From positions 1-42,220 of the forward strand of contig JASJCC010000005.1 in assembly GCA_030066175.1 (NCBI GenBank): a DNA stretch of 42,220 nt, given 5' to 3'. The notes under the pieces were generated by a model that had not been told where the DNA came from, ran no database searches, and worked only from the letters and a program-made list of their open reading frames with translations. Positions 1 to 26,705 of the stretch are shown in pieces. The stretch is from Paracoccaceae bacterium (GTDB lineage Bacteria > Pseudomonadota > Alphaproteobacteria > Rhodobacterales > Rhodobacteraceae). A program made the translations under genes and the position numbers. How positions within the stretch are numbered: position 1 is the first letter of the stretch; each line of letters opens with the position of its first letter.

Positions 1-3000
1 AGAAGCGCGGGATGCAGCTCACAGCCATCTCCCTGCGCCGCCGCAGGTAGCGACAGGTCTGCGATGCCCTCCCCCTGGCCAAAGGCGCGGCTGTCCAGCA
101 CCTGCCAGCGCGGTCCAAAGGCCAGGTGCACCTCTTGCGCACTGGTCAGTTTGCCGCCCGTTTCGGCCTGTCCGCAGCGGTCGCGAATCGCATCCAGGTC
201 CAGCGGTTCCGGCCGCGCCATGGCGCCCAGCGCCAAAGTCGCTTGCGCCGTCAGGCAATGGCCGTGACGGCCGTTCAACGTACAATCGGCCAGCACGTCG
301 AAGCCATAGCCTTCGCCGCTCCGCGTCAGCCGCACCCTCACGTCCCGCGCCGCGCCATCGGCCACCCGCAGGGGCCGCAGGAAGTTCAGATCGCGGATCT
401 CGAAACTGCCGGACTCGTGATGCGCCCGCAGCGCATGCGCCGCTAGCGTCAGGTACCCCGATCCCGGCAGCAGCGCATCGCCTGCCTTGGTCCGGTGTTC
501 ATCGATAAACCAATCCGCGGCGCTATAGCTCGCGTGGAACACCCGGTTGCCCTGCGCGTCGAAACTGGCCGTCTCCAGCATCGGCAGGTCCACCGGCGTC
601 TCCACCGCTTTCGGCAGATCCCCTGCACGTGCCGCAACCGCCTCGGCCGCCATGCCGACCTCGTTCCAGATGCCCCAATTGATCGCCACGACGGGCGTCT
701 TGCCGCCCGCCCGCGACTGGGCAAAGGCGTTGAGGAATTCGTTGGCCGCGACGTAATCCACCTGCCCCGCCGGGGCCGTGACGGTCGACGAAGAGCTGAA
801 CAAAGCGATCCACTCGACCGACCCATCGGGAAAGAGCTGATCCAGCACCTCGGTGCCGTGGATCTTCGGCGTAAACACGTCCTCGACCCCCGCCGGGCTC
901 TTGGTCAGCAGCGGCGCGTCGGCGATCACCCCGGCGCCGTGGATCACGCCGGTGATCGGGCCAAAGCGCTTCTCGGCCTCGGCTTTCACGCGCTGCATCT
1001 GCGTCAGGTTGCAGACATCCGCGGCGGCGATCATCACCTCGGCGCCGGCCTCCTCCAGCGCCTGCACGGCGCGAATCCGGCGGGCGATGGCGTCCTGCGG
1101 CGCGTGGCGCGCGAGGTAGTCGGCCCAAAGCGCCCGCTCTGGCAGCGCTTGCCGGGCCACCAGCACCAGCTTGCCACCCTGCGCCGCGAAATCTTGCGCC
1201 AGGCTCTGGCCAATCCCGCCAAAGCCGCCGGTGATGAAGTAAACACCATCCTGTTTCGGCGCCGGGCGCTCGGCCGTCAGCGCCACGGGGCGCATCGCAC
1301 ATTCAAACCGCCGGTCGGCGCGCAACGCGGCAATCACATTGGCCGGCTCGGAACAGAGCTCTTCCAGCACCGACTTACCCAGCGCCTGCATCGCCGCGTC
1401 CTGCGTCGCCTCAGCCTGCCCCCGCCGCCAGAACGGTGCGTCCATCCTCGCGGGCAAAGCCACATCCAGGGTCCCAACCGTCACCCCCGGCAATTCCCGC
1501 GGGATCACCCGCGCCGGGCCGGCGATGGTGGCCTTGCCGGGATAGGGCAACGCCTCATCCCGCAGACGCACAGCGCCATTGGTGATGACCGAGATATGCA
1601 GCGGCCCGGGCAGGTTTTCATCGGCAATCGCCTGCGCCAGGAACATCAGCGCATAGAATCCCTGCTCCTGAATCCGGTGGAAAAAGCTCCCGCCGGGGCG
1701 GAAGGATTCATCCCTAGTCACCATCCAGAAATGCGCGACGCGGCTGGGCATCAGCCCCTGCCGCAGGATGTCCTGGATCAGCAGATCATAGCCTTCGCGC
1801 CCGCGTTCCGGCGCCAGAACATAGCGGTTGTCGGCCAGCCTTTGGAAGGTATCCCCGGCCCGCACCTCGATCACCGTGTGGCCCGCGTCACGCAGCCGCA
1901 AAGCACAATCCTCGGCCAGGCCCGCATCGTCCATGAACATCAGCCAGGTCTGCGGTTCACTCTTATCCAGGGCGTCACGCACATCCACCTCAACCTGCGC
2001 CGCGCGCGGTCGCCAGACCGGAGCCCAACCCCAGTCGGACATCTCGTCATTGCGCATCAGGTATTGCGGACCGCTTTCGGTCTGCGCCTTGCCCGGCGCG
2101 ATGAAATAAGGCGCTTGTTGGAAGGCATAGGTGGGCAAAGGCACGCGGTGGCGGGTGGCGTCACCCCAGATCTGCTCCCAATCGATCGGCACACCCAACG
2201 CCCAGAGACGGCCCAGCACCTCGAACATGTGCTTGTCATCGGCGATGACGTCATCCGGGTGGCGCAGCGACGACAGCGCCTGATTGGCGCTGACATCCGG
2301 GTGCTGACGCGACAGCGCGGTCAGCGCCTTGCCCGGTCCGACCTCGAGGAACACGCGGTTAGGCGCCGCCAAAGCTCCAATGCAATCGGCAAAGAGCACC
2401 GTGCCGCGCAGATGCTCGACCCAGTAATCCGGGTCGGTGGCCTGCGCGTCGGTCATCATCTGGCCCGTGCGGTTCGAGGTCAGCGGGATCTGCGGTGGGT
2501 GCAATGTGATGCCATGCAGATAGGCGCGGAAATCCTCGAGGATCGGCACAAGCATCCGCGAATGCGCGGCGATGTCGATGGGGATGCGCTGGCAGTCGAT
2601 ATCCTGCTTACGCAACTCAGCCTGCAAAGCATCCAAAGCTGCTTGCGGGCCGGAGGCAACCGACAGCTCGGGCCCGTTCACGGCGCCAAGGTCCAGCGCG
2701 TCGCCCAGCAGAGGCTCCAGCCGTTCCGCCGGTACCGCGACCGACAGCATGCCGCCGGCAGGCACGGTGTCAAAGAGCCGTCCGCGCAGATGGACCAGAC
2801 CGATGCAATCCTCGAACGACATCACACCCGCCACGCAGGCAGCGGTGTTTTCACCCATCGAATGCCCGGCCAAGGCCGCCGGTTGTATGCCCCAACCAAT
2901 CCAGAGCTGCGCCAGCGCGTATTCGACGATCATGATCAGCGGCAGCTGTAGGCTGGGCTGTGTCAACGCGGCATCGGCCGCCTCCCGCTCTGCCTCTGCA

Positions 3001-4949: not shown

Positions 4950-6311
4950 CTAATGCGCACTCAGCGCCACAATTGGCGCCCAGTTGAGCGAGACGGCAAT
5001 CAGCGCCAGACCGGCCCCAAGAACCGCAAACAACAGGTCATGCAGCGGGTCCCAGGCGCCCATGCGCCGCGCCAGCCAGACCACCACCGGATAGGCCAGC
5101 AGAAACGCCACCCCCTGCGCAATCAGCCCGCCCATCAGGCCCGACATCTCAAGCCCGATGATCAGCGCCCCGATCATGAACACCGCCCGGGCAAAGGCCA
5201 GGGCAAAGAACCGCTTGGAATCCCCCGCCGCCAGCGCCGCCTGATCATAGGTGGCGACAATGATCTGCGGCATCTGCATCACCGCCATCACCACAACAAT
5301 CGCGCCGGCCTTCTGGTAACGCGGATCGTATAGCAGATCGACCAGCCAGACCCCCAGCACGCCAAACCCCGCCACCATCAGTAGCAACACCGCCGTCACC
5401 ACCATGCGCATCCGGCGCAGTTTCAGAAAGTTCTCGCGGCTCTCACCCGGGGGCGTTTCGCGATAGATCGGGATCAGCACCTTGCTGGTCACCAGCCCAC
5501 CCAGCAGCATCGGGAAGGAGGCGAGGAAGAACCCGATATTGTAGATCCCGAAGATCTCCAGATCGAGGTATTTGCCGATCAAGAGCTTGTCGCCCTGCGT
5601 GAAGAGGAACCCGCAAACGGTGGACAGGAAAATCCACTTGCCGAAATGGATCAGCTCACGCGCGGCGGCCGGCTCCCACCTCAGATGATTGCGCGGGCCG
5701 GGCAGAAAGCGGTTGCTGATCAGCACCTCGACCGTGACGCTGATGATGCCGCTCATCACCAGCGCCCAGACCGATCCGGTCAGCCAGGCCAGGATCACCG
5801 CGCTGATCAGGCCCGACAGCTGCGTGACCATCTCCAGCACCGTCACGCGGCCAAGGCTCAGATGCCGGTTCGCCGTGTCGATGCGCGTCGGTTTGAACCC
5901 GGTGATAAACAGCGCCAGCGCCGCGACGGGCAACAGCTGCAGCAATTGCGGCTCGTCATAGAACCAGGCCATCGGCCAGGCGCAAAGGCACGCTACCGCC
6001 CAGAGGCAGACCCCGCGGATGACCTGTATGGTCCAGGCCGTATTCAGGAATTCCGGGTCGTCGCCTCGTTTGCTTTGCAGGATCGCAGGGGTGACGCCGA
6101 CATCGGAAAACATCGACAGACCCATCATGAAAACCATCAGAAGCGCCATCATCCCGAACGCTTCGGGAAACAGCAGGCGGGTCAGGATCAGGTTCGACGC
6201 GAGCCGCAGCATCTGGCTGAAAGCAAACCCGCCCACCGTCAGCAGCGACGACCGGATCACGCGGGCGCCAAGGGTCGACCCCTGCACCTGTTGGACCAGC
6301 GACGCGATCAT
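4950..6311 (-). CDS. Oligosaccharide/polysaccharide flippase (Wzx/MATE-like, polytopic membrane protein)
   Basis: 453 aa, multiple hydrophobic helices; RSSLLTVGGFAFSQMLRLASNLILTRLLFPEAFGMMAL is typical of the polysaccharide flippase N-terminus. Start overlaps the stop of the upstream glycosyltransferase. Confidence 0.85.
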   Translation of the reverse strand: MIASLVQQVQGSTLGARVIRSSLLTVGGFAFSQMLRLASNLILTRLLFPEAFGMMALLMVFMMGLSMFSDVGVTPAILQSKRGDDPEFLNTAWTIQVIRGVCLWAVACLCAWPMAWFYDEPQLLQLLPVAALALFITGFKPTRIDTANRHLSLGRVTVLEMVTQLSGLISAVILAWLTGSVWALVMSGIISVTVEVLISNRFLPGPRNHLRWEPAAARELIHFGKWIFLSTVCGFLFTQGDKLLIGKYLDLEIFGIYNIGFFLASFPMLLGGLVTSKVLIPIYRETPPGESRENFLKLRRMRMVVTAVLLLMVAGFGVLGVWLVDLLYDPRYQKAGAIVVVMAVMQMPQIIVATYDQAALAAGDSKRFFALAFARAVFMIGALIIGLEMSGLMGGLIAQGVAFLLAYPVVVWLARRMGAWDPLHDLLFAVLGAGLALIAVSLNWAPIVALSAH

Positions 6312-7315: not shown

Positions 7316-8548
7316 GTGACGCGCTCATTGCGGATCGGATATCTCGTCCCGCAGTTTCCGGGACAGACCCACATGTTTTTCTGGCGCGAGGTGCAGGCGC
7401 TGGAGGCGATGGGCCACGCGGTGCACCTGCTGTCGACCCGCAAACCGCCCAAGGGGCTGATCGCGCATAGCTGGTCTGAGACCGCGATGGCGCGGACCCG
7501 CTATCTGGGTGATCCGGATGTGGCGGCGGCCTTGGGCGCCTTGACCCGGCTCTTGCCACGCGGCCTGCTGCTCTGGATGGCGCGCGAAGGGGTGGGGTTT
7601 GCCAAAGACGCCGCCCTGGTGATGGCCGCGGCGCACAAGCTGCTGAGCTATGCCCGCGCCGAGGGGCTTGACCACGTGCATGTGCATTCCTGCGGCCGCG
7701 CCGCTTTGGTGGCCGCTTTGGCGCAGCGCATGGGCGGGCCAGGGTACTCCCTGACGCTGCATGGGCCGCTCTCGGATTACGGCCCCGGCCAACGCTTCAA
7801 ATGGCGCCGCGCCCGCTTTGCCACCGTGATCACGACTAAGCTGCGGGACGAGGTGCAAGAGACCTTGGCCGGCCACCTGCCCGAGCGTCTGGTCATCCGC
7901 CCCATGGGCGTCGATACCGACACGCTCACCCGCGACACCCCCTATGTGCCGCCCGAAAACGGACGCCCGGTGCAGCTCTTCTCCTGCGGGCGGCTGAACG
8001 TCGTCAAAGGCCATCAGGACCTGATGACCGCCATGCGGCAGCTCTTGGATCAGGGGGTCGATGTCAGGCTTGAGATTGCGGGGGAGGATGATGACGGAGG
8101 CACCGGCTACCGCCAAACGCTTGAAAAGCAAATGAAAAAACTGCACCTGCGCGACCACGTCAAACTGCTGGGCGCGATCGACGCCGACGCCGTCCGCGCC
8201 AAGCTGCAAGACGCGCATGTCTTTGTCCTTGCCAGTTGGCACGAACCACTGGGCGTGGCCTATATGGAGGCGATGGCGATGGGTGTACCGGCCATCGGCA
8301 CCGATGCGGGCGGCGTGCGAGAGCTGATCGAGGACGGTGTGAACGGCGTCCTGGTCGAGCCGAAAAACCCCTCGCACCTCGCCCGTGCGATCCGCGATCT
8401 GGCGGCTGACCATGACACCGCCCTGCGCCTCAGCACAGCCGGCCGCGCGCATGTGGAGGCGCATTTCCGCTCGTCCCTCGGCGCTGAAACCCTGGTCACC
8501 GAGATCCAAACAGCCCTGGATCAGAGCCCCGAGACCGGCACCACATGA
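7316..8548 (+). CDS. Glycosyltransferase group 1 (GT4-like, GT-B fold)
   Basis: 410 aa, GTG start; LFSCGRLNVVKGHQDLMTAM and VFVLASWHEPLGVAYMEAMAMGVPAIGTDAGGVRELIEDGVNGVLVEP are GT4 signatures. Confidence 0.88.
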   Translation: MTRSLRIGYLVPQFPGQTHMFFWREVQALEAMGHAVHLLSTRKPPKGLIAHSWSETAMARTRYLGDPDVAAALGALTRLLPRGLLLWMAREGVGFAKDAALVMAAAHKLLSYARAEGLDHVHVHSCGRAALVAALAQRMGGPGYSLTLHGPLSDYGPGQRFKWRRARFATVITTKLRDEVQETLAGHLPERLVIRPMGVDTDTLTRDTPYVPPENGRPVQLFSCGRLNVVKGHQDLMTAMRQLLDQGVDVRLEIAGEDDDGGTGYRQTLEKQMKKLHLRDHVKLLGAIDADAVRAKLQDAHVFVLASWHEPLGVAYMEAMAMGVPAIGTDAGGVRELIEDGVNGVLVEPKNPSHLARAIRDLAADHDTALRLSTAGRAHVEAHFRSSLGAETLVTEIQTALDQSPETGTT

Positions 8549-11463
8549 CCGGGCGCCGCCTCGAACTCCAGGCTTTCGACCTGCGCCATGGTGATCCGGC
8601 CAAACCGCCCCTCGGCCACCAGCCGCACACCATTCTGCACAAAGGCATAGTCACTGCGCGACCCCGGTAGGATCACCCGGTCGCTCCCGCTGCCGCCATG
8701 CAGATGATCCATCCCACCCTTTGAGACCAGAATGTCATTGCCGGGACCCCCCAGCATGATGTCCTCATGCGGTGTGCCTTCCAGCCGCTGACCGCCTGCC
8801 CCACGCACCCGCGTGATGCCGTTGGCAAAAGCCGCCTCTTCCCGCCGTTCCCACGCATTCGGGCCCGAGGCGTTGAACGCCATCAGCATATCCCAGCGCG
8901 GGTTGTCGTCATCCAGATGCCGCAGCGCGCCCCAGCTGCCCCATTTTGACGCTCGCGCCACATCGACAAAGGCGTTGAACAGCGTCCCACCGGACTCGAC
9001 CCAGCCCGCCAACAGGATCTCATAGAGCTTCGCCATCTCGGGGGTGTAGTTGAACGCGGTAAAGAACTCGGCGAGGCGTTCGTCATTCACCTGGCTGCCA
9101 TTGGGCGCCGCATGGGTGCCGCCTTCATACATGATCAGCCGCAGACCCGCCTGACTGGCAACAGCGGCGTGATAGGGGAACACCTCTTGCGTCAGCTCGC
9201 GCAGCGACCCCTCTTGCAGGGCAATCGCGACAGGGGCAATCGCCGCCTCGAACCGCGCCTCGCGGATGAACTCGCGCAAAGCGACCCGGCGCAGGCCCTG
9301 CGCCTCACCCGCCAGCCGCGCCACCTCTTCGGCCTGATCCAGCCAGGTGTTCATCTGATCCGCCATTTCGGGGCTGCCCATCTCGTACCCGAAATAGCCG
9401 GTCACCGCGTAGGCATCGAAACTGTCCTGCGGTGGGCGGCCCAGGGTCAGCAAGGCCAGGGGCGCAATCAGGATCGCCTCTTCCAGCTCGGGCCAGCCGG
9501 TATGGGTGCTGACCACCCGCACCAGCCTGTCATCGGCCGCGTCGCCAAACACCTCGGTCCAGATGTCCATCATCTGCGCCGCCCGCAGGCCGTAGAATTG
9601 CAGCCAGCCAGTGTCGGACTCCCCCCACAGCGCATCCGCCTCGGCCGCGGCCCAGGCGGCCTGCGGAAAGATCCGGTTCCAGACCTCGTTGGAATACTCC
9701 ACATAGGCCTTCAACCGCGGGTCGAGCCCGTCGCGCACGACCTCGGCGAAACGCCTGGCATAGTCGTCATCGGCCATATGCGGCAGGGTGAACCACGGAT
9801 CGGCGCCGATGTGATTGGCCAGCGCCAGCATCACCTCCAGCGGCACCCCCCAAGACGTCCAGGTGGCATCGCTCATACGCGGCCTGTCGGCCCAGGTCTG
9901 CTGCGGCGATCCGTTGGTCATCATCCAGTCCATGAAGCGCACCACGCGCAGGTCCTGCACCCGTTCCAGCCAGTCGGGGTTAAACAGCACCCCGGCCTCA
10001 TGCAGTTCCAGATGATCGCGCCGGATCACCCGGATATTGCGCATCGGGTTTTCGGCCGGAATCTCCGAGATCGCGATGCCCACCAGCCCGCTCCCCGGCG
10101 TATAGCGAAAGCTGACCTGCCCCGGCTCCGGCCGCACTCGCCGCGCTCGGCCGGTCAGCTCAAACTCTGCCTCGCCGTCGTAGAACATCACGTATTCGCC
10201 ACGCAGGTGTTCGGCGTCGTCGTATTGATCCGTCAGCAGCACCGACTCCAGCCGCTCAACGCCTTCTGGAATGCTGATCGGCCAGCCGTTTTCATCCAGA
10301 TGCCCGCCGGCGCGCAGCTCATCGGCGGTGACGCCGCCCCATTGACCGGGCAGGTGCCCAACCCAATCCCGCGCCGTCTTCATCACGTCGATAAACGGAT
10401 GCTGCGTCGACCAGTCGGCGATGCCATTCAACCCCATGCCCAACGCCGGAATCCCCGTCGGCCGCACCCCGCTGGGCGGCAAGGCCACCGGCTGGCGCTG
10501 TGGCAGCGCTTCCACCGTCTGTGGCGCCTCCTCCGTCTCCACCACCGCCCGCGTCACCGGCGGCGGCACCGCTTGCCAGATCCGCTCGCGCAGCGCGGCA
10601 TAGTTCTCCACCACCGCCGGATGCAGGTTGGCCGGCGGCGTGTACCCGGCCGGCGGCGGCGCCTCGTATATCGCCGCATAGGTCACCATGGCGGCCAGGA
10701 AATACGCCGTCGGCGTGCCATGCGGCGCGTCATCGGTGAAAAGCGCCGCCGCCGGAATCTCGGCCAAGGGCCCGCCTTCGGCCAAAAACTCGGCCATCAC
10801 CGACGCCACCGGGATCAGCCGCGGCGCCATGCCCGGCCGGGCCAAGGCAATCCCCGCCGCAAGCTCTTGGTACCAGGCGTGATATTCGGCCCGGGTAAAG
10901 GCGTGAAACCGGGCAAACGCCTCGTCCGAAGGGGGAAACGTGCCCGACACACCGGCCAGCTCGGCCCAGCCCTCGAACACAAAGAGCCGCGCGTCTCGCG
11001 CATTCGCCGCCACCCAGTCAAACAGCCGCAAGGACGCGCCCAAAGGGCTCTCCCGGTTCGCGTTGTCACCGTCATAGGGCGCGTCGGGTGGCTGGTACTG
11101 GATGAAATTCGCCGGCGTCGCGATCACTGCATCGAAGCCCGCCTGGCCAAACCCGACACTGTCTGGCGACCACGCCCCCGACACGCCGGGGAACGACCAG
11201 TTCGCCGTGGGCGGCAACCCATCCGCGAAATTCCGCAAGAACCCCCACTGCCCGTCAATCGCAAACCGCCGCCCATCAGCCTCGGCCATCGCATCCAGCC
11301 AATGCGGCACATTGGTGTGATCCTCCTCGCCCAGATGATGGACCAGCGAATTGCCAAAGACATAGACGCGCGACGCATCACGCCGCTCCTGCGCCGCCGC
11401 CTGCAAGGGCAGGTTCAGCGCCAGCAGCACCACAGCCAGCACGCAAAAGACCCGTCGGTACAT
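8521..11463 (-). CDS. Secreted hydrolase-like protein with C-terminal RTX-type repeats
   Basis: 980 aa; Sec-type signal peptide MYRRVFCVLAVVLLALNLPLQAAAQ; SGNH-like start VYVFGNSLVHHLG; central segment with WFTLPHMADDDYARRF and YVEYSNEVWN resembling glycoside-hydrolase barrels; C-terminal GGPGNDILVSKGGMDHLHGGSGSDRV resembles RTX nonapeptides. Confidence 0.7.
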   Translation of the reverse strand: MYRRVFCVLAVVLLALNLPLQAAAQERRDASRVYVFGNSLVHHLGEEDHTNVPHWLDAMAEADGRRFAIDGQWGFLRNFADGLPPTANWSFPGVSGAWSPDSVGFGQAGFDAVIATPANFIQYQPPDAPYDGDNANRESPLGASLRLFDWVAANARDARLFVFEGWAELAGVSGTFPPSDEAFARFHAFTRAEYHAWYQELAAGIALARPGMAPRLIPVASVMAEFLAEGGPLAEIPAAALFTDDAPHGTPTAYFLAAMVTYAAIYEAPPPAGYTPPANLHPAVVENYAALRERIWQAVPPPVTRAVVETEEAPQTVEALPQRQPVALPPSGVRPTGIPALGMGLNGIADWSTQHPFIDVMKTARDWVGHLPGQWGGVTADELRAGGHLDENGWPISIPEGVERLESVLLTDQYDDAEHLRGEYVMFYDGEAEFELTGRARRVRPEPGQVSFRYTPGSGLVGIAISEIPAENPMRNIRVIRRDHLELHEAGVLFNPDWLERVQDLRVVRFMDWMMTNGSPQQTWADRPRMSDATWTSWGVPLEVMLALANHIGADPWFTLPHMADDDYARRFAEVVRDGLDPRLKAYVEYSNEVWNRIFPQAAWAAAEADALWGESDTGWLQFYGLRAAQMMDIWTEVFGDAADDRLVRVVSTHTGWPELEEAILIAPLALLTLGRPPQDSFDAYAVTGYFGYEMGSPEMADQMNTWLDQAEEVARLAGEAQGLRRVALREFIREARFEAAIAPVAIALQEGSLRELTQEVFPYHAAVASQAGLRLIMYEGGTHAAPNGSQVNDERLAEFFTAFNYTPEMAKLYEILLAGWVESGGTLFNAFVDVARASKWGSWGALRHLDDDNPRWDMLMAFNASGPNAWERREEAAFANGITRVRGAGGQRLEGTPHEDIMLGGPGNDILVSKGGMDHLHGGSGSDRVILPGSRSDYAFVQNGVRLVAEGRFGRITMAQVESLEFEAAPGHVVPVSGL

Positions 11464-16627: not shown

Positions 16628-17755
16628 TCAAAGCCGCCTTCGTATGAAACTGGCTAGTCGAGACAAAGCCGTCGAACGTGGGGCTGTTCCCGTGTCTGCT
16701 GCTAATTGACTGAAGTCCTGTGCTGGTTGCTTCTCCGAATAGGGCAGATCGAAACCATACGTTTCTCTCAAGAAATCAATGACTTCATCACTTGGCTTCT
16801 CACCATAGCTACTTGCGACGACCGTTCCAAAGTCTTCAAGATCGATCACACCCTTCGAAGCAATAGCTGCAAGGAAATCTTGTTCACGATTCTCCTCTAC
16901 ATGCACAAAATAATATGCCCAACGCCCGGTACTGTCTTTGGCCTTCAGCTTGTGGATCAGATGGCCCTCACGAGCAAAGTCAGGGACAACTCGACCAAGA
17001 CCATGTTCGCGAACACCGCGCATCGCTTGGGCTGAGGTGGGAGCATCTTGAGCCACTTGAGCTTTCTCAAAGACCACCTCGTTCATAAGCGCAGAGTGAT
17101 CCCATGGCACCTGAGCCCCGCCAGTAACAACGTGGACATCATTTCGAACACGTCGCAACATGATCTCTATAGGCTCGCCGTACTTTCCAATATTTTCACT
17201 GAGCGACGCCGCATAAGGACTATGACGCCCGAGCCCATCTAACGCCACCTGTCCGGGAGACGTAGAAAAAGCGATCAGTGTGTTCGGTGGTGAACTTGGA
17301 AATGCAAGCCCTCTGTATCCACCGCGCACCTGAGAGAAAAATGGGTAGTTCCGACATCCGTCGACAAAGATCATACGGGTATGTTGCACACCAGGAACAA
17401 CCAACTTGCCCTGTAGCCAGGTGAGCGAAACAGCAGACCGCTCAAGCCATTGCACATCCTTTTCTCGCATTGAGACAGGTAGAAGGTAGTTTTCGCCCAT
17501 ATGCTGAATAGCATGTCCAGCATAGTACAATACGATTTCTGCCTTGGAGGGGAGCAGTTTCGCTCTCTCAGCAAACTGAACACAAAGCTCAAGCATTCTT
17601 TCGATATCGGCATCGGGGACAACGAACACATCGTAACCCACCGATTTCAAACTATTTGCGACTAATTCGATGTCATGCACCGGGTTCTTCAGATCGGATA
17701 ATTCGGAGTAATGAGAATTCCCTATGAGTAGAGCGACCCTCTTTGTTTTCTGCAT
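16628..17755 (-). CDS. Caspase-family protease (peptidase C14-like) with extra C-terminal domain
   Basis: RVALLIGNSHYSELSDLKNPVHDIELVANSLKSVGYDV; catalytic His in EIVLYYAGHAIQ, catalytic Cys in RMIFVDGCRNYPF; STSPGQVALDGLGRHSPYAASL and QVPWDHSALMNEV. ATG 17755 (GTG 17764 possible). Confidence 0.92.
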   Translation of the reverse strand: MQKTKRVALLIGNSHYSELSDLKNPVHDIELVANSLKSVGYDVFVVPDADIERMLELCVQFAERAKLLPSKAEIVLYYAGHAIQHMGENYLLPVSMREKDVQWLERSAVSLTWLQGKLVVPGVQHTRMIFVDGCRNYPFFSQVRGGYRGLAFPSSPPNTLIAFSTSPGQVALDGLGRHSPYAASLSENIGKYGEPIEIMLRRVRNDVHVVTGGAQVPWDHSALMNEVVFEKAQVAQDAPTSAQAMRGVREHGLGRVVPDFAREGHLIHKLKAKDSTGRWAYYFVHVEENREQDFLAAIASKGVIDLEDFGTVVASSYGEKPSDEVIDFLRETYGFDLPYSEKQPAQDFSQLAADTGTAPRSTALSRLASFIRRRL

Positions 17756-17756
17756 C

Positions 17757-18542
17757 TTACACACTCTCGATCCGATAACGGATCACGTATGCTGCAGCCA
17801 CTTCCTCGGAATACTGAGACAGTGTTTTGGCTATACTGTCATCTCGAATTTCCCGAACCGAGAAATCACGATCGTACACGTGTAAGAGAGCAGACTTAGC
17901 TGGAAAAATCACTATGAATAGATCATTTGGCCCTACCGGCGGACCAACTACAAAGCCTTCTTCACGATCATCCAAGGCGCTGTTTGGAATCGAGATATGG
18001 CCATCTATGCTTTCTTGTTGACACTCACCCCAATGCCGACCCGGGTGCAGCATAACTGTTTGATTGTCAGGATAGGAGTGATTGAAAACAAACAATAAGC
18101 AGTCCTCACCGCATGGAACTAACAAGTCCAGCATTCCTCCAAGCGGCACTATTCTCCTTTCGTTAACCATACCCTCCGCAGGCCTCTGCAGGGCACGCCA
18201 GTTTCTCAATCTGAGAATAGTGTTGTCGACCTTCGCAGGAAGTGAATGCAGCCAGTTGATCAGAGTGTCTCCAACGCCATGCCACGGGCGCTCTCCGAGT
18301 AGAATTTCGTGCTCGGTAGAACCTGGCTTGATGTCGAAACAAGCGAGTAATGCCCTGTGCCTTGCCCCGTTCGACGGAGGACCGTTGTGGAACCATACTG
18401 CCACACGACCCGGTGCCAACGGGTCGAAAACCTCGTTTGTATCCGCAGCGGCTTGTTCCAGCTTCCCAATGAACTCCTTCACCGACCACCCGCGAACCTG
18501 AACCAGATAGCGAAGAAACCTCCCGGACGAAACCTGCGGCAT
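17757..18542 (-). CDS. HTH-like N-terminus plus DUF4384-like C-terminal domain protein
   Basis: N-term RFLRYLVQVRGWSVKEFIGKLEQ...VAVWFHNGPPSNGARHRALLACFDI resembles an XRE-type HTH; C-term LLFVFNHSYPDNQTVMLHPGRHWGECQQESIDGHISIPNSA...FVVGPPVGPNDLFIVIFPAKS resembles DUF4384. ATG 18542 preferred over the TTG at 18647. Stop is 1 nt from the caspase ATG. Confidence 0.65.
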   Translation of the reverse strand: MPQVSSGRFLRYLVQVRGWSVKEFIGKLEQAAADTNEVFDPLAPGRVAVWFHNGPPSNGARHRALLACFDIKPGSTEHEILLGERPWHGVGDTLINWLHSLPAKVDNTILRLRNWRALQRPAEGMVNERRIVPLGGMLDLLVPCGEDCLLFVFNHSYPDNQTVMLHPGRHWGECQQESIDGHISIPNSALDDREEGFVVGPPVGPNDLFIVIFPAKSALLHVYDRDFSVREIRDDSIAKTLSQYSEEVAAAYVIRYRIESV

Positions 18543-18638
18543 GAGATTCACCGTGCAATTGCGTGCATCAACGTGGCTACGAGAAACGTGCCGAAAACGC
18601 GAGCCTTGAGACACTGCAAATTGCTCAAGGAGGCTATA

Positions 18639-18992
18639 ATGCCGCAATTAAAGTCAATCCTCGCCGCGTGTGCATCTGTGTCAATTGCCTGCGCTCCCCT
18701 ACCTTCATTCGCGCAGAGCTGTGCGCAACTGGAAAGGCAAAAACAGAGCTTAGAGAACGAGAAGTCGCGATTGTACGAAGAGTATCCCGGCACCTTACTG
18801 TCACTTTTCACATGTTTCGCAGTAGCAAATGAAGCAGACGAAACAGAACAAGTGCCAGTCTTTCTCATCTGCGCTGCAGGCGTCTGTCTATTTAGCGGCG
18901 TCGACAACTGCGTGAACATCGGAACACGGGCGTTTAACGCAGAGCGCCGCTCCAACGAAGTTGATCGGTTGATGAGTCGCGAAAGCTGCTAA
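18639..18992 (+). CDS. Small secreted Cys-rich protein, unknown family (117 aa)
   Basis: ATG 18639 preceded by AAGGAGG; signal peptide MPQLKSILAACASVSIACAPLPSFAQS; coiled segment LERQKQSLENEKSRLYEE and hydrophobic VPVFLICAAGVCLF. The ORF track extends it falsely to 18357. Confidence 0.7.
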   Translation: MPQLKSILAACASVSIACAPLPSFAQSCAQLERQKQSLENEKSRLYEEYPGTLLSLFTCFAVANEADETEQVPVFLICAAGVCLFSGVDNCVNIGTRAFNAERRSNEVDRLMSRESC

Positions 18993-19002
18993 CCAAGAAA
19001 GC

Positions 19003-19036
19003 GAGGCGCGCAGGGGGCAATAAACCTGCGCGTCTC
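19003..19036 (+). terminator. Strong terminator-like hairpin
   Basis: gaggcgcgcagg (19003-19014) pairs with cctgcgcgtctc (19025-19036), 12 bp with one G-T, loop 10 nt; immediately after the 18639 gene. Confidence 0.55.
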
Positions 19037-19285
19037 TCGTCTTTGCTCAATGGCTTTCTCATCTTTTGCACAGTTCTGTAGCAGACTGCCCAAAAGAGTG
19101 TCATGAAATGATCGCGTGTCACTAACAACAAGGTCAAAACTGAAGCAAGGCCGCACCAAAGTGGATGACCGCTCGTAGAGACGATGCGAGTTTTTGCCTC
19201 AGTTTTCGAAATAGGAGTTCAAACGCTCCATCGACAGGCTAGTATCCGAAAAAGCTTTTCATTCAAAATCGAAGGTTTCACAAAA

Positions 19286-21073
19286 ATGAAAAATTTGCGC
19301 TTAGTGACATGGGCAAGTGCGCTTTTCTTTTCCATTGTGCCTGTGATCGCCATTTCACAGTCCGCACCTTCTCAGTTTGAAGACTGCTCCAACCTCAGCA
19401 GCGATGAAATTCAGACTCATATCTCGGACATTGTTTCGAAAAATATGACTGGTTACCTGCGGGGTACGAATTTCTACCCTCTCGTCTACGACTCCTGGGC
19501 CGCGGTCGACGGAGACCGGAAGTTCTCCGCTATCGTCGACACATATATCGACCGAAAACTGGACGATCGGCAGTCGCTAATGGACTTTTTCAATGTTTTT
19601 CGGGCCAACTACCAGCCCGGTTGGGCCGAGGAGCTCGCAAGAGAAGTCATTGAGGAAATCTTTACTTCCCCGGAGTTCTCGGACCTTTCAGACGAAATCG
19701 GTAAAGAGATCTCGGGACGCATTGAGCAGTCTTCCAATGCTCTACAAGCTACTGAGCAAACCCAGCTTGATATTGCAGAGTGCATGGCGGCTCATCTTGG
19801 CAGCAAATACAATGAGACGATCGCCAGTTTTGCACAACTAGAAGTGCCATCAATCAGCCCTGAAATCCCTGCGGGCGCGGAAGCTTCCGTCATATTCAAC
19901 TTTGCGACCATCATATCAGGTATTCTGCTACTGATCGGCAGGCGTATTATTGCGCGCATTCTCGCTCGCCTATTGGGAAGAATTGCTACAGCGCTAGGTG
20001 CGCGAGTACTTGCCACCTTTACAGGTGTTGGGGGTGTCATTCTCATCATTGTTGACCTAGTGGCAGGAGGCGATGGACCTTACCCCCTGATCAGGGAAGA
20101 ACTCAAAAACACTGCAACGCGTGATCAGATAATAAGGAGCATAGCAGACGCTATTCCTGAACAGGCGCTCGAAGACCTCCCAAAGGAAGTCAGGGATGCG
20201 GCCGCAAGACTTGAAGCTGAGCTCAACCGGTTCAGAGAAAGCAATCGTGTCTTGCTTGATCTGACCGAGAGCGTGGCACCCTTCAATGTATTTGTAGGGA
20301 ACCTGGACCCTGCGGAGGAACTCAACGACCTCATTTCGATCATCCGACCGCTCCAGGCAGATGGGGGCAGTCAGGCAGTTAAAGACGCATTTGATCGTGG
20401 CGAACTACAACGTTACATGTTGATGTCGGACGCTGGAAAACGATTGGCTCAAACCCTGCGGTCGATCCCCAAGGCCGAGGCTTGGATCGAGGCCGTACCA
20501 GGCCACGTCAATCGACTCATGGAAGCTGAGCTGTTCCGCTATCTCGAACCCGACACGCTCCGTGTGACACAGCTTGAACGTCTCCTTGAGATGGACAATG
20601 CTGAAACCATTCAAGAGCTTTCACAGATGCCCGAAGAGGCACTGGATGAACTCCTGGACCTACCAACCGCCACGCTGAACAATTTGGGCGACACGCTGTC
20701 CACGCGTGAGCTTCGTGACCTAGCAGATGTTTTGGGCAACCTCGAAGGCGCGGCGGAGCGTATCGCCTTTGTAAGGACGCTGATCAACGACGGAGGCGCT
20801 CGCGCTTCAGAAATCCTTGGAAACGGTGGCCTTATTCAGGGGATCATTGCGAGTTCTGATCAGGTCGGCGCAATCGAGCTAGTCGAACGGCCCGGGCTTA
20901 GAAGCCTTATGAAGGGTATTTCAATGACGCTCCAAGGCGAGATCGACTGGAGAGTGGTCAGCCAATCAAACGCACTCGTGCGAACAATTCTACTTCTGAT
21001 TGTCGCTTTGGGGATCCTTGCTGGTCTCAAATGGTTCTGGCCTCGCAAGGCGAGGGCATCGAAGGATGCCTGA
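19286..21073 (+). CDS. Large membrane protein of unknown family
   Basis: ATG 19286, then MKNLRLVTWASALFFSIVPVIAISQS signal peptide; central hydrophobic Gly-rich FNFATIISGILLLIGRRIIARILARLLGRIATALGARVLATFTGVGGVILIIVDLVAGG; helical Leu-rich region; C-terminal TM TILLLIVALGILAGLKWFW then RKARASK. Confidence 0.75.
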   Translation: MKNLRLVTWASALFFSIVPVIAISQSAPSQFEDCSNLSSDEIQTHISDIVSKNMTGYLRGTNFYPLVYDSWAAVDGDRKFSAIVDTYIDRKLDDRQSLMDFFNVFRANYQPGWAEELAREVIEEIFTSPEFSDLSDEIGKEISGRIEQSSNALQATEQTQLDIAECMAAHLGSKYNETIASFAQLEVPSISPEIPAGAEASVIFNFATIISGILLLIGRRIIARILARLLGRIATALGARVLATFTGVGGVILIIVDLVAGGDGPYPLIREELKNTATRDQIIRSIADAIPEQALEDLPKEVRDAAARLEAELNRFRESNRVLLDLTESVAPFNVFVGNLDPAEELNDLISIIRPLQADGGSQAVKDAFDRGELQRYMLMSDAGKRLAQTLRSIPKAEAWIEAVPGHVNRLMEAELFRYLEPDTLRVTQLERLLEMDNAETIQELSQMPEEALDELLDLPTATLNNLGDTLSTRELRDLADVLGNLEGAAERIAFVRTLINDGGARASEILGNGGLIQGIIASSDQVGAIELVERPGLRSLMKGISMTLQGEIDWRVVSQSNALVRTILLLIVALGILAGLKWFWPRKARASKDA

Positions 21074-21395
21074 CCCGAATGAGCTTTTGCTTCTGTCCAT
21101 TGAAGCGGTGCCAGCGGATTACGAGCTTGGTGGCATCGTAGTTGTTTCTCACGTGCGCGCAGTAAACATCCTGCGCGACTTTCGAGAAATGCTCACGAAC
21201 GTAACTGGAGGGCATATGAAGCGGTACGAGGCTCTGCTCAAAGAAGCACTGGATGAGGTCGAGAGCCGCTTTCGTTCAGAGCTCATCATACGAGGGTATG
21301 ATGGTGCCGTTGGAGTACGTATTGCACACCCTCAGGTCGTAGGTGGCGGAGCTGAGCTCATTATGTACGGGACAGGAATAAAGCTCAGGCTCTAG
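21066..21395 (+). CDS. YbjQ/UPF0145-like protein
   Basis: 109 aa; GGIVVVSHVRAVNILRDFREMLTNVTGGHMKRYEALLKEALDEVESRFRSELIIRGYDGAVGVRIAHPQVVGGGAELIMYGTGIKL matches the family pattern. ATG 21066 overlaps the upstream stop by 8 nt (ATGCCTGA). Confidence 0.75.
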   Translation: MPDPNELLLLSIEAVPADYELGGIVVVSHVRAVNILRDFREMLTNVTGGHMKRYEALLKEALDEVESRFRSELIIRGYDGAVGVRIAHPQVVGGGAELIMYGTGIKLRL

Positions 21396-25640: not shown

Positions 25641-26705
25641 TTACGCCGCCTCATGCATCAGGATCGCCGCCTCTGACGACGACAGGTTGCGCCGCGCATA
25701 GGCGCCATAGCTGTGCGGGTTCTCAGCCAGCTTGGGCAGATAGGTAAAGAGCCGCGCCCGGTCATCATCGCTGATCGTCGAAAGCGCCGTGTTCGCCGGG
25801 TGAAAGCTCTCGGTCTCCACCCCGTTGGCAAACAGCACCTCATGGCGCGGCAACAGCATGTGGATATAGGTCACCTCGCGCGCCAGCCGGTCGCGCACAA
25901 CGCTGTGGCCATTGATCAGGTCCTTGGCCGACACGAGCACCTCGGGCGTGTTGAACAGCGACCGCGCCACCGCGCCCTGCACCAGCATCCGATGCTCAGG
26001 CGACACCAGCACATCCGCATCCGGCGTGCCGATCCCAAAGGCGCCGCCACGGATGCGCACCGGCCGCAGGTTCGGCATCGCAAAAAGCCGCGCCCCGGTC
26101 ATCCGCCGGCTGCCGACCCACAGGATCTCCTGCGCGCCGCTATCCTTGGTCTGCACCGCGTCGCCCTCACGCAGATCGTCGATCAGCTTGGGCCCCTCGG
26201 GCGTCAGGATCTGCGTACCCGGGGTGAAACAGATCACCCCGCCGCCTTGTTCACCCACGCTTTGCGTGCGGATCGCCTCGATATTGTGATGCACGATCCA
26301 CAGCTCGGCGCCCTTCGGCGGCATCTCATCCAGGAACATCAACAGCGGCTTTGACCCGCCGCCCACCTCGATCAGCGTGACCGTATAGCTCTGCAGCCCG
26401 TTGGTGACCACAAAACTGCTGTCGGACAGCGGATGCTCGATCTCGATGTCGTCCAGATTGTTGGTATGTGTAACCGCCGCGCCCACCAGCCGGCGCACCG
26501 TGCGCGCCGCACGCCTGCGGATATCTGCTTCGCCTTCGGTCTGGTCCAGGTTCAGGATCGACGAAGGGCCGTCAATCCGAACTGCTTCCCCTTGCCAGGC
26601 CCACGAGGACCCAACGCTGAAGGATGACGGAGGTGCAGCCTTGAGGCCGTCTATTTCCGTCTGTGACCAGGAGATGACGAACGTGCCTCGATAGCCCGTC
26701 CCCAT
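25641..26705 (-). CDS. Hint-domain (hedgehog/intein-like) protein
   Basis: CFTPGTQILTPEGPKLIDDLREGDAVQTKDSGAQEILWVGSRRM...PDADVLVSPEHRMLV...FHPANTALSTIS, typical Hint domain. Confidence 0.87.
   Translation of the reverse strand: MGTGYRGTFVISWSQTEIDGLKAAPPSSFSVGSSWAWQGEAVRIDGPSSILNLDQTEGEADIRRRAARTVRRLVGAAVTHTNNLDDIEIEHPLSDSSFVVTNGLQSYTVTLIEVGGGSKPLLMFLDEMPPKGAELWIVHHNIEAIRTQSVGEQGGGVICFTPGTQILTPEGPKLIDDLREGDAVQTKDSGAQEILWVGSRRMTGARLFAMPNLRPVRIRGGAFGIGTPDADVLVSPEHRMLVQGAVARSLFNTPEVLVSAKDLINGHSVVRDRLAREVTYIHMLLPRHEVLFANGVETESFHPANTALSTISDDDRARLFTYLPKLAENPHSYGAYARRNLSSSEAAILMHEAA

Follow-up and report, generated by a model that had tools for sequence, protein, structure and literature searches.

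Caspases are common in bacteria, mostly without a known partner or substrate, and the locus described here raises the question of whether the genes around one such caspase belong together and, if so, what they might do. The locus occupies 16.6–21.4 kb of a 42,220-nucleotide stretch of DNA from a Paracoccaceae bacterium (GenBank contig JASJCC010000005.1), hereafter the window, which is the entire contig and belongs to an incomplete genome (84% complete, 253 contigs). All five predicted open reading frames (ORFs) are present, with the caspase gene (P0001) and P0002 on the minus strand and, divergently, P0003, P0004 and a YbjQ-like gene (P0005) on the plus strand. The same five genes recur in a second genome, the four partners of the caspase having stayed constant over a long divergence, and we regard it as very likely that they form one conserved module. 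The features referred to below are as follows.

16628..17764, minus strand: P0001, caspase, 378 aa from GTG, alternative ATG at 17755; Pfam PF00656
17087..17743, minus strand: caspase domain (Pfam), with Asp31, His84 (codon 17513-17515), Asp135 and Cys137 (codon 17354-17356)
16745..16978, minus strand: undescribed C-terminal domain of P0001, aa 263-340, about 75 aa
17757..18542, minus strand: P0002, 261 aa from ATG; HTH-like N-terminus and beta-rich C-terminus (low confidence)
18543..18638, no strand assigned: putative divergent promoter/operator with conserved third positions, holding the best-conserved 50-bp stretch of the core
18639..18992, plus strand: P0003, 117 aa, predicted exported, Cys-rich, one additional hydrophobic segment
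18981..19058, plus strand: imperfect hairpin 3' of the P0003 stop; inverted repeat, terminator-like by eye
19286..21073, plus strand: P0004, 595 aa, predicted exported helical membrane protein without a known family
19937..20023, plus strand: Arg-rich loop of P0004 (aa 218-246), flanked by two hydrophobic segments; predicted cytosolic, candidate caspase substrate
21066..21395, plus strand: P0005, YbjQ/UPF0145 family (PF01906), 109 aa; start overlaps the P0004 stop by 8 nt

Recurrence of the five genes in a second genome

The second copy, locus L060, lies in a metagenome-assembled genome (MAG) of Aestuariivita sp. FE80 and was reached by scanning for the C-terminal domain of the caspase (one genome per species; 29 loci returned). 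It carries all five genes in the order and orientations of the window. Identity between the two loci is 75% for the caspase, 75% for P0002 and 84% for P0003, compared with 23% for P0004 and 34–35% for YbjQ. Similarity at the DNA level is confined to 16702–19009, and the sequence outside the block does not align. The core genes (caspase, P0002 and P0003) show synonymous divergence (dS) of 1.2–2.1, near saturation, and nonsynonymous divergence (dN) of 0.08–0.16, with dN 0.15 and dS about 1.8 for the caspase and dN 0.08 for P0003; dN is 1.08 for P0004 and 0.74 for YbjQ. The low dN at near-saturated synonymous sites indicates that the linkage has been maintained by purifying selection through a long divergence. 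The junctions are likewise shared, with a stop, one nucleotide and the caspase ATG joining P0002 to the caspase in both loci (TAAGATG / TAGGATG), and an 8-nt overlap of the YbjQ start with the P0004 stop in both (ATGCCTGA / ATGACTAG). Because a second genome has the five genes in matching order and orientation, their grouping is not a matter of chance.

The block has evolved in two parts: the caspase, P0002 and P0003 are conserved (75–84%), and the P0004–YbjQ pair has strongly diverged together. The shift from one part to the other falls at the imperfect hairpin that follows the P0003 stop (inverted repeat I1, whose 34-nt arms are 71% complementary), which was not called by the terminator scan and within which the DNA similarity stops, at 19009. 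The pair has either evolved fast, as in recognition or an arms race, or been exchanged as a cassette, and two loci do not separate these.

In proposing an undescribed, conserved caspase-centered set, the original prediction, which was made from the window sequence, anticipated much of this arrangement. The caspase-fold gene on the minus strand that it described as coupled to its upstream gene is a Peptidase_C14 member whose ATG lies 1 nt past the P0002 stop, the divergent small secreted Cys-rich protein is P0003, and the YbjQ-like gene does overlap the preceding stop. It also held the block to be lower in GC than its neighbors and to lie between unrelated metabolic genes, and both hold (see below). 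Co-occurrence of the genes, which it wanted checked by neighborhood analysis, was found at L060, and the membrane gene P0004 was not found without a caspase anywhere in the sampled genomes. Conservation across Rhodobacterales, where it would have had the gene order examined, was not observed, and the set, with two loci known, is very rare.

The caspase and its C-terminal domain

Among the five proteins, convincing Pfam family matches were obtained for the caspase and YbjQ alone. P0001 matches Peptidase_C14 (PF00656) with an E-value of 2.3e-31 (109.7 bits against a cut-off of 21.4) and is of the orthocaspase type, no p10 domain being recognized in it. Residues H84, C137, D31 and D135 are invariant across 33 aligned homologs of the order. 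The closest solved sequence is that of the MALT1 paracaspase, and MALT1 is Arg-specific. The two Asp residues were equated by motif, not structure, with the acidic-pocket residues of TbMC2 (PMC6426788), and prokaryotic orthocaspases cut after basic residues (PMC6426788). Since the catalytic and pocket residues are intact, and given the MALT1 match and this orthocaspase specificity, P0001 is expected from its sequence to cleave after Arg or Lys.

Other caspases of the order align with P0001 over the caspase domain only, at about 31–40% identity. A second caspase gene in the window genome (G000:C119, 11027-11674, minus strand; locus L057; 341 aa) has a different (DCC) active-site motif and adjoins a gene for an SMP-30-like beta-propeller protein (assigned by eye).

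The C-terminal domain of P0001 matches no Pfam or NCBIfam family. It is highly conserved, with the motif HLIHKLKAKDSTGRWAYYFV...YGFDV, across loci L058–L088. Standalone copies occur in Rickettsiales and other alphaproteobacterial MAGs; in addition, the domain ends a Nostoc protein of 1050 aa in which an ATPase-like region was recognized by eye (the NPHP3_N match is below its cut-off), stands at the C-terminus of HEAT-repeat-like proteins in other cyanobacteria and terminates larger, unassigned proteins in Bacteroidota. A Runella plasmid has a diverged copy with a caspase gene on either side, and in one alphaproteobacterial MAG lineage a standalone copy adjoins glutaredoxin-2 and DUF6746 genes, so the domain need not be defense-specific. 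These contexts suggest a portable adaptor domain. Separately, one MAG contig (L064) holds two distant versions as separate small genes, at 1-324 (minus strand) and 5932-6234 (plus strand).

P0002 and the divergent regulatory region

The P0002 ORF can be extended upstream to 18647. Third codon positions in this extension are 85% identical between the two loci (18543–18620), compared with 49% in the gene body, and in the divergent region (18543–18638) the best 50-bp windows are 92% identical. This excess conservation of third positions therefore points to regulatory, non-coding DNA and places the P0002 start at 18542. Promoter and terminator consensus scans of the block gave matches at shuffle level and were not used, and an Rfam scan found nothing within the block.

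The product had been predicted to be HTH-like (helix-turn-helix) and DUF4384-like. Its AlphaFold model, built from a two-sequence alignment, reaches a predicted local distance difference test (pLDDT) score of 39 and has five helices followed by strands, which is compatible, at low confidence, with an HTH plus a beta domain; the HTH label draws on this helix pattern and on a reading of the sequence. The DUF4384 part gained no support, since Pfam gave no match and hhalign against the DUF4384 proteins of Roseobacter plasmids gave a probability of ≤0.5%, in a comparison whose power is low with two P0002 sequences.

The exported proteins and YbjQ

P0003 has a predicted signal peptide, six Cys in its mature part and, by hydrophobicity analysis, one further hydrophobic segment. 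P0004 had been taken for a multi-transmembrane protein of about 595 aa and unknown family. Its size stands, as does the absence of a family match (Pfam, NCBIfam, PADLOC, PHROGs and PDB were searched); the multi-transmembrane description does not, for the protein has a signal peptide or anchor, a transmembrane (TM) segment at 202–218, a hydrophobic stretch at 245–261 and a C-terminal TM segment at 563–579, the remainder being soluble helices. The L060 counterpart aligns across most of its length (phmmer E 1.7e-20). Both copies begin with a signal peptide or anchor and an acidic N-terminal region, and both have the TM segment near 202–218, a basic loop, another hydrophobic stretch that is weaker in L060, an extended acidic region of helices and a C-terminal TM segment with basic residues behind it. 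The Arg-rich loop motif is kept in both copies although overall identity is 23%, with six basic and no acidic residues in the window and eight and none in L060; by the positive-inside rule it is predicted to be the sole sizeable cytosolic segment of P0004. The AlphaFold model (two-sequence alignment, pLDDT 39.5) is at most "all-helical".

P0005 matches YbjQ_1 (PF01906; E 4.3e-12, 47 bits against a cut-off of 23) as well as solved UPF0145 structures.

Searches for further relatives

P0004, used as a single sequence, as its central segment and as a two-sequence profile in sets of 246, 198, 395 and 240 sampled genomes, found only itself. Weaker matches (E about 1e-3 to 1) to a CvpA-like protein (by eye), a recombinase and coiled coils proved unrelated on reading, and the class search ended with two partial profile matches (E 4.6e-4 and 0.0097), which were taken as chance, unread. 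P0002 had no relative in 296 genomes of the order, nor did its profile in 240 of the class, and a P0003 profile gave no convincing match in 81 genomes. Plasmids yielded no match to P0004, P0002, the block DNA or the L060 P0004; phages yielded none to the core DNA, and IMG/VR viral contigs none to P0004, P0002, P0003 or the C-terminal domain. Exact peptide patterns from P0004 were absent from genome contigs, and such patterns also missed the 23% identical L060 homolog. Since relatives of P0002 and P0004 were not found in hundreds of genomes, plasmids and viral contigs, the set is rare.

Genomic setting of the two copies

The composition of the block in the window is foreign, with a GC content of 49–54% against about 59–69% outside and a GC content at third codon positions (GC3) of 0.47–0.55 against 0.72–0.81, and the block was likely acquired horizontally. 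Its neighbors are unrelated to it and encode a serine beta-lactamase-family protein, an alginate-export-like porin, a gamma-glutamyltranspeptidase and a 2-hydroxyacid dehydrogenase.

The L060 copy is surrounded by a tRNA-Cys, a large serine recombinase, conjugation-like ATPases, an nSTAND1 NTPase, a tyrosine integrase and an IS30-like transposase (named by eye from HTH_38 and rve). Past the end of YbjQ are a protein matching PADLOC NsnA/PD-T4-2 (NsnA E 2.4e-58), a HerA-like ATPase, which matches mad8 less strongly (E 6e-12), and a PD-Lambda-1 match (E 4e-102). These surroundings look like a defense island on mobile DNA. The wider region (L092–L094; NZ_JAAWWD010000003.1, about 133–162 kb) is a probable integrative defense island enclosing the second copy.

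Two further genes of the window are unrelated to the module, namely an ORF of 980 aa that weakly matches RTX repeats (8521-11463, minus strand) and a gene for a Hint_2-domain protein (25641-26705, minus strand).

Possible function of the module

From its company at L060, we lean, narrowly, toward the module being a conflict or defense system directed against phages or competitors. The L060 island is the chief support for this role, as guilt by association at one of the two loci. The fuller reading, that the five genes are one functional, horizontally acquired module working as an envelope-watching caspase conflict or defense system, is plausible but falls somewhat short of being probable. Several points weigh against it: the five-gene set is known from two loci; the window copy has metabolic flanks in which no defense gene or integrase was recognized; no PADLOC system matched the set, the caspase alone giving a weak match (E 2.1e-5); the P0004 topology comes from hydropathy and charge only; and, of the five proteins for which AlphaFold models had been suggested, P0002 and P0004 were modeled with pLDDT values (39) too low to be used in a fold search.

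For the way in which such a system might work, we infer the cellular locations, DNA binding by P0002, the activation, the substrate, the outcome and the defense role itself. The exported, conserved, Cys-rich P0003 and the diverging P0004 would monitor the cell envelope, with YbjQ acting as the cognate partner of P0004. Disturbance of the envelope would alter P0004, P0002 or both, and the caspase in the cytosol, under the control of P0002, of its own modular C-terminal domain or of both, would then cleave after Arg or Lys. A protease-activated membrane effector, one of the roles suggested in the original prediction, may thus be what the set provides. A predicted cytosolic Arg/Lys-specific caspase encoded with a membrane protein that has one exposed basic loop makes this loop the obvious candidate substrate, and the cut might release or open P0004, leading to membrane damage, growth arrest or altered signaling, while P0002 would control both arms from the shared divergent promoter. 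That the caspase acts on the loop is nonetheless a doubtful proposition taken singly, and the complete scheme, with a conserved trigger core (caspase plus adaptor domain, HTH-like regulator and periplasmic Cys-rich protein) cutting the cytosolic Arg-rich loop of a fast-diversifying P0004/YbjQ pair, is improbable as a whole.

The module may instead serve envelope-stress signaling without killing, as an island-borne adaptive trait in which P0003, P0004 and YbjQ report on the periplasm, the caspase is regulatory and P0002 changes transcription. The two exported proteins, the cotranscription of an HTH-like partner with the caspase, the conserved divergent regulatory region and the metabolic setting of the window copy would suit such a role; the defense island around the second copy, the rarity of the set and a divergence of P0004 and YbjQ that is unusual for a housekeeping signaling chain make it a rather unlikely one. 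Alternatively, P0004 and YbjQ may be an exchangeable effector–immunity (toxin–antitoxin-like) cassette, P0004 damaging the membrane, YbjQ restraining it and the core releasing it by proteolysis. Although the two genes overlap, are translationally coupled and have diverged jointly while the core did not, and although similarity breaks off sharply at the hairpin preceding them, P0004 matches no toxin family (Pfam, PADLOC and further family searches), its 595 aa and large acidic helical regions are atypical of small pore toxins, and no inhibitor role is known for YbjQ, so that we consider this explanation improbable too. Chance juxtaposition on related islands of two functionally unrelated, co-travelling units (HTH–caspase–P0003 and P0004–YbjQ) is very unlikely, for although there are only two loci, the halves differ in conservation and the predicted transcription units are separate, order, orientation and junctions have survived a synonymous divergence close to saturation, and the two loci differ everywhere outside the five genes.

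If the defense reading is true, the module would be a new, rare caspase-based defense or cell-death module in marine-type Alphaproteobacteria, with a mechanism that is possibly new should the proposed role of P0004–YbjQ hold. P0004 offers a single short basic loop, predicted to be cytosolic, as a testable caspase substrate. The module also links the widespread YbjQ family to a diversifying membrane protein; if the complete scheme held, a protein of this family would have its first defined function, that of cognate partner to a sensor or effector in conflict. In addition, the module brings to light an unnamed 75-aa domain that is attached to the caspase as well as to several large proteins from different phyla.

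Comparison with known systems

Conflict systems based on caspases are already known, of which this module is probably an undescribed and rare one. The nearest described design is the EACC1–caspase membrane-associated conflict system, which combines a constant caspase, an exchangeable C-terminal part and a membrane component (2020, PMC7159879, System 4) and for which proteolytic activation at the membrane has been proposed (PMC7159879). Similarly, P0001 is a caspase with an exchangeable C-terminal domain encoded beside a membrane component. However, the EACC1 gene, 5' of its caspase, codes for a small protein with a single TM segment, whereas the 5' gene here encodes the 261-aa, HTH-like P0002, which has no EACC1 match, and the caspase is accompanied besides by the exported Cys-rich P0003, the 595-aa membrane protein P0004 and YbjQ. 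Membership in the EACC1 system was rejected, P0001 scoring 29.5 bits against the EACC1-associated caspase model (cut-off 140) and the single-TM EACC1 gene not being present.

P0001 shares the His–Cys dyad and the two acidic S1-pocket Asp residues with orthocaspases (Peptidase_C14) of Alphaproteobacteria (PMC6426788) and differs from the others in its unnamed C-terminal domain and constant genomic partners. Within the same taxonomic order, a caspase on Roseobacter plasmids lies beside TolQ–ExbD–ExbD–DUF4384 operons, often near type VI secretion system (T6SS) genes, and is thus, like P0001, close to membrane and small secreted proteins, but none of the four partner genes of the module is related by sequence to those operons. 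The operon of these plasmids (L033, L098, L099, L100 and L101) runs conserved small secreted protein–MotA/TolQ–ExbD–ExbD–DUF4384, directly adjoins the caspase gene and T6SS genes in Ruegeria and Leisingera, and is possibly another caspase-linked envelope module.

The likeness to the bacterial gasdermin and protease systems, a works-like analogy only, lies in a caspase-like protease next to a candidate membrane-acting protein; unlike gasdermin, P0004 is predicted to be exported, helical and much larger, and it has no gasdermin match in Pfam or PADLOC. Finally, P0005 resembles the YbjQ/UPF0145 family in matching PF01906 and solved UPF0145 proteins and is encoded with a caspase, an association for which our literature search found no paper.

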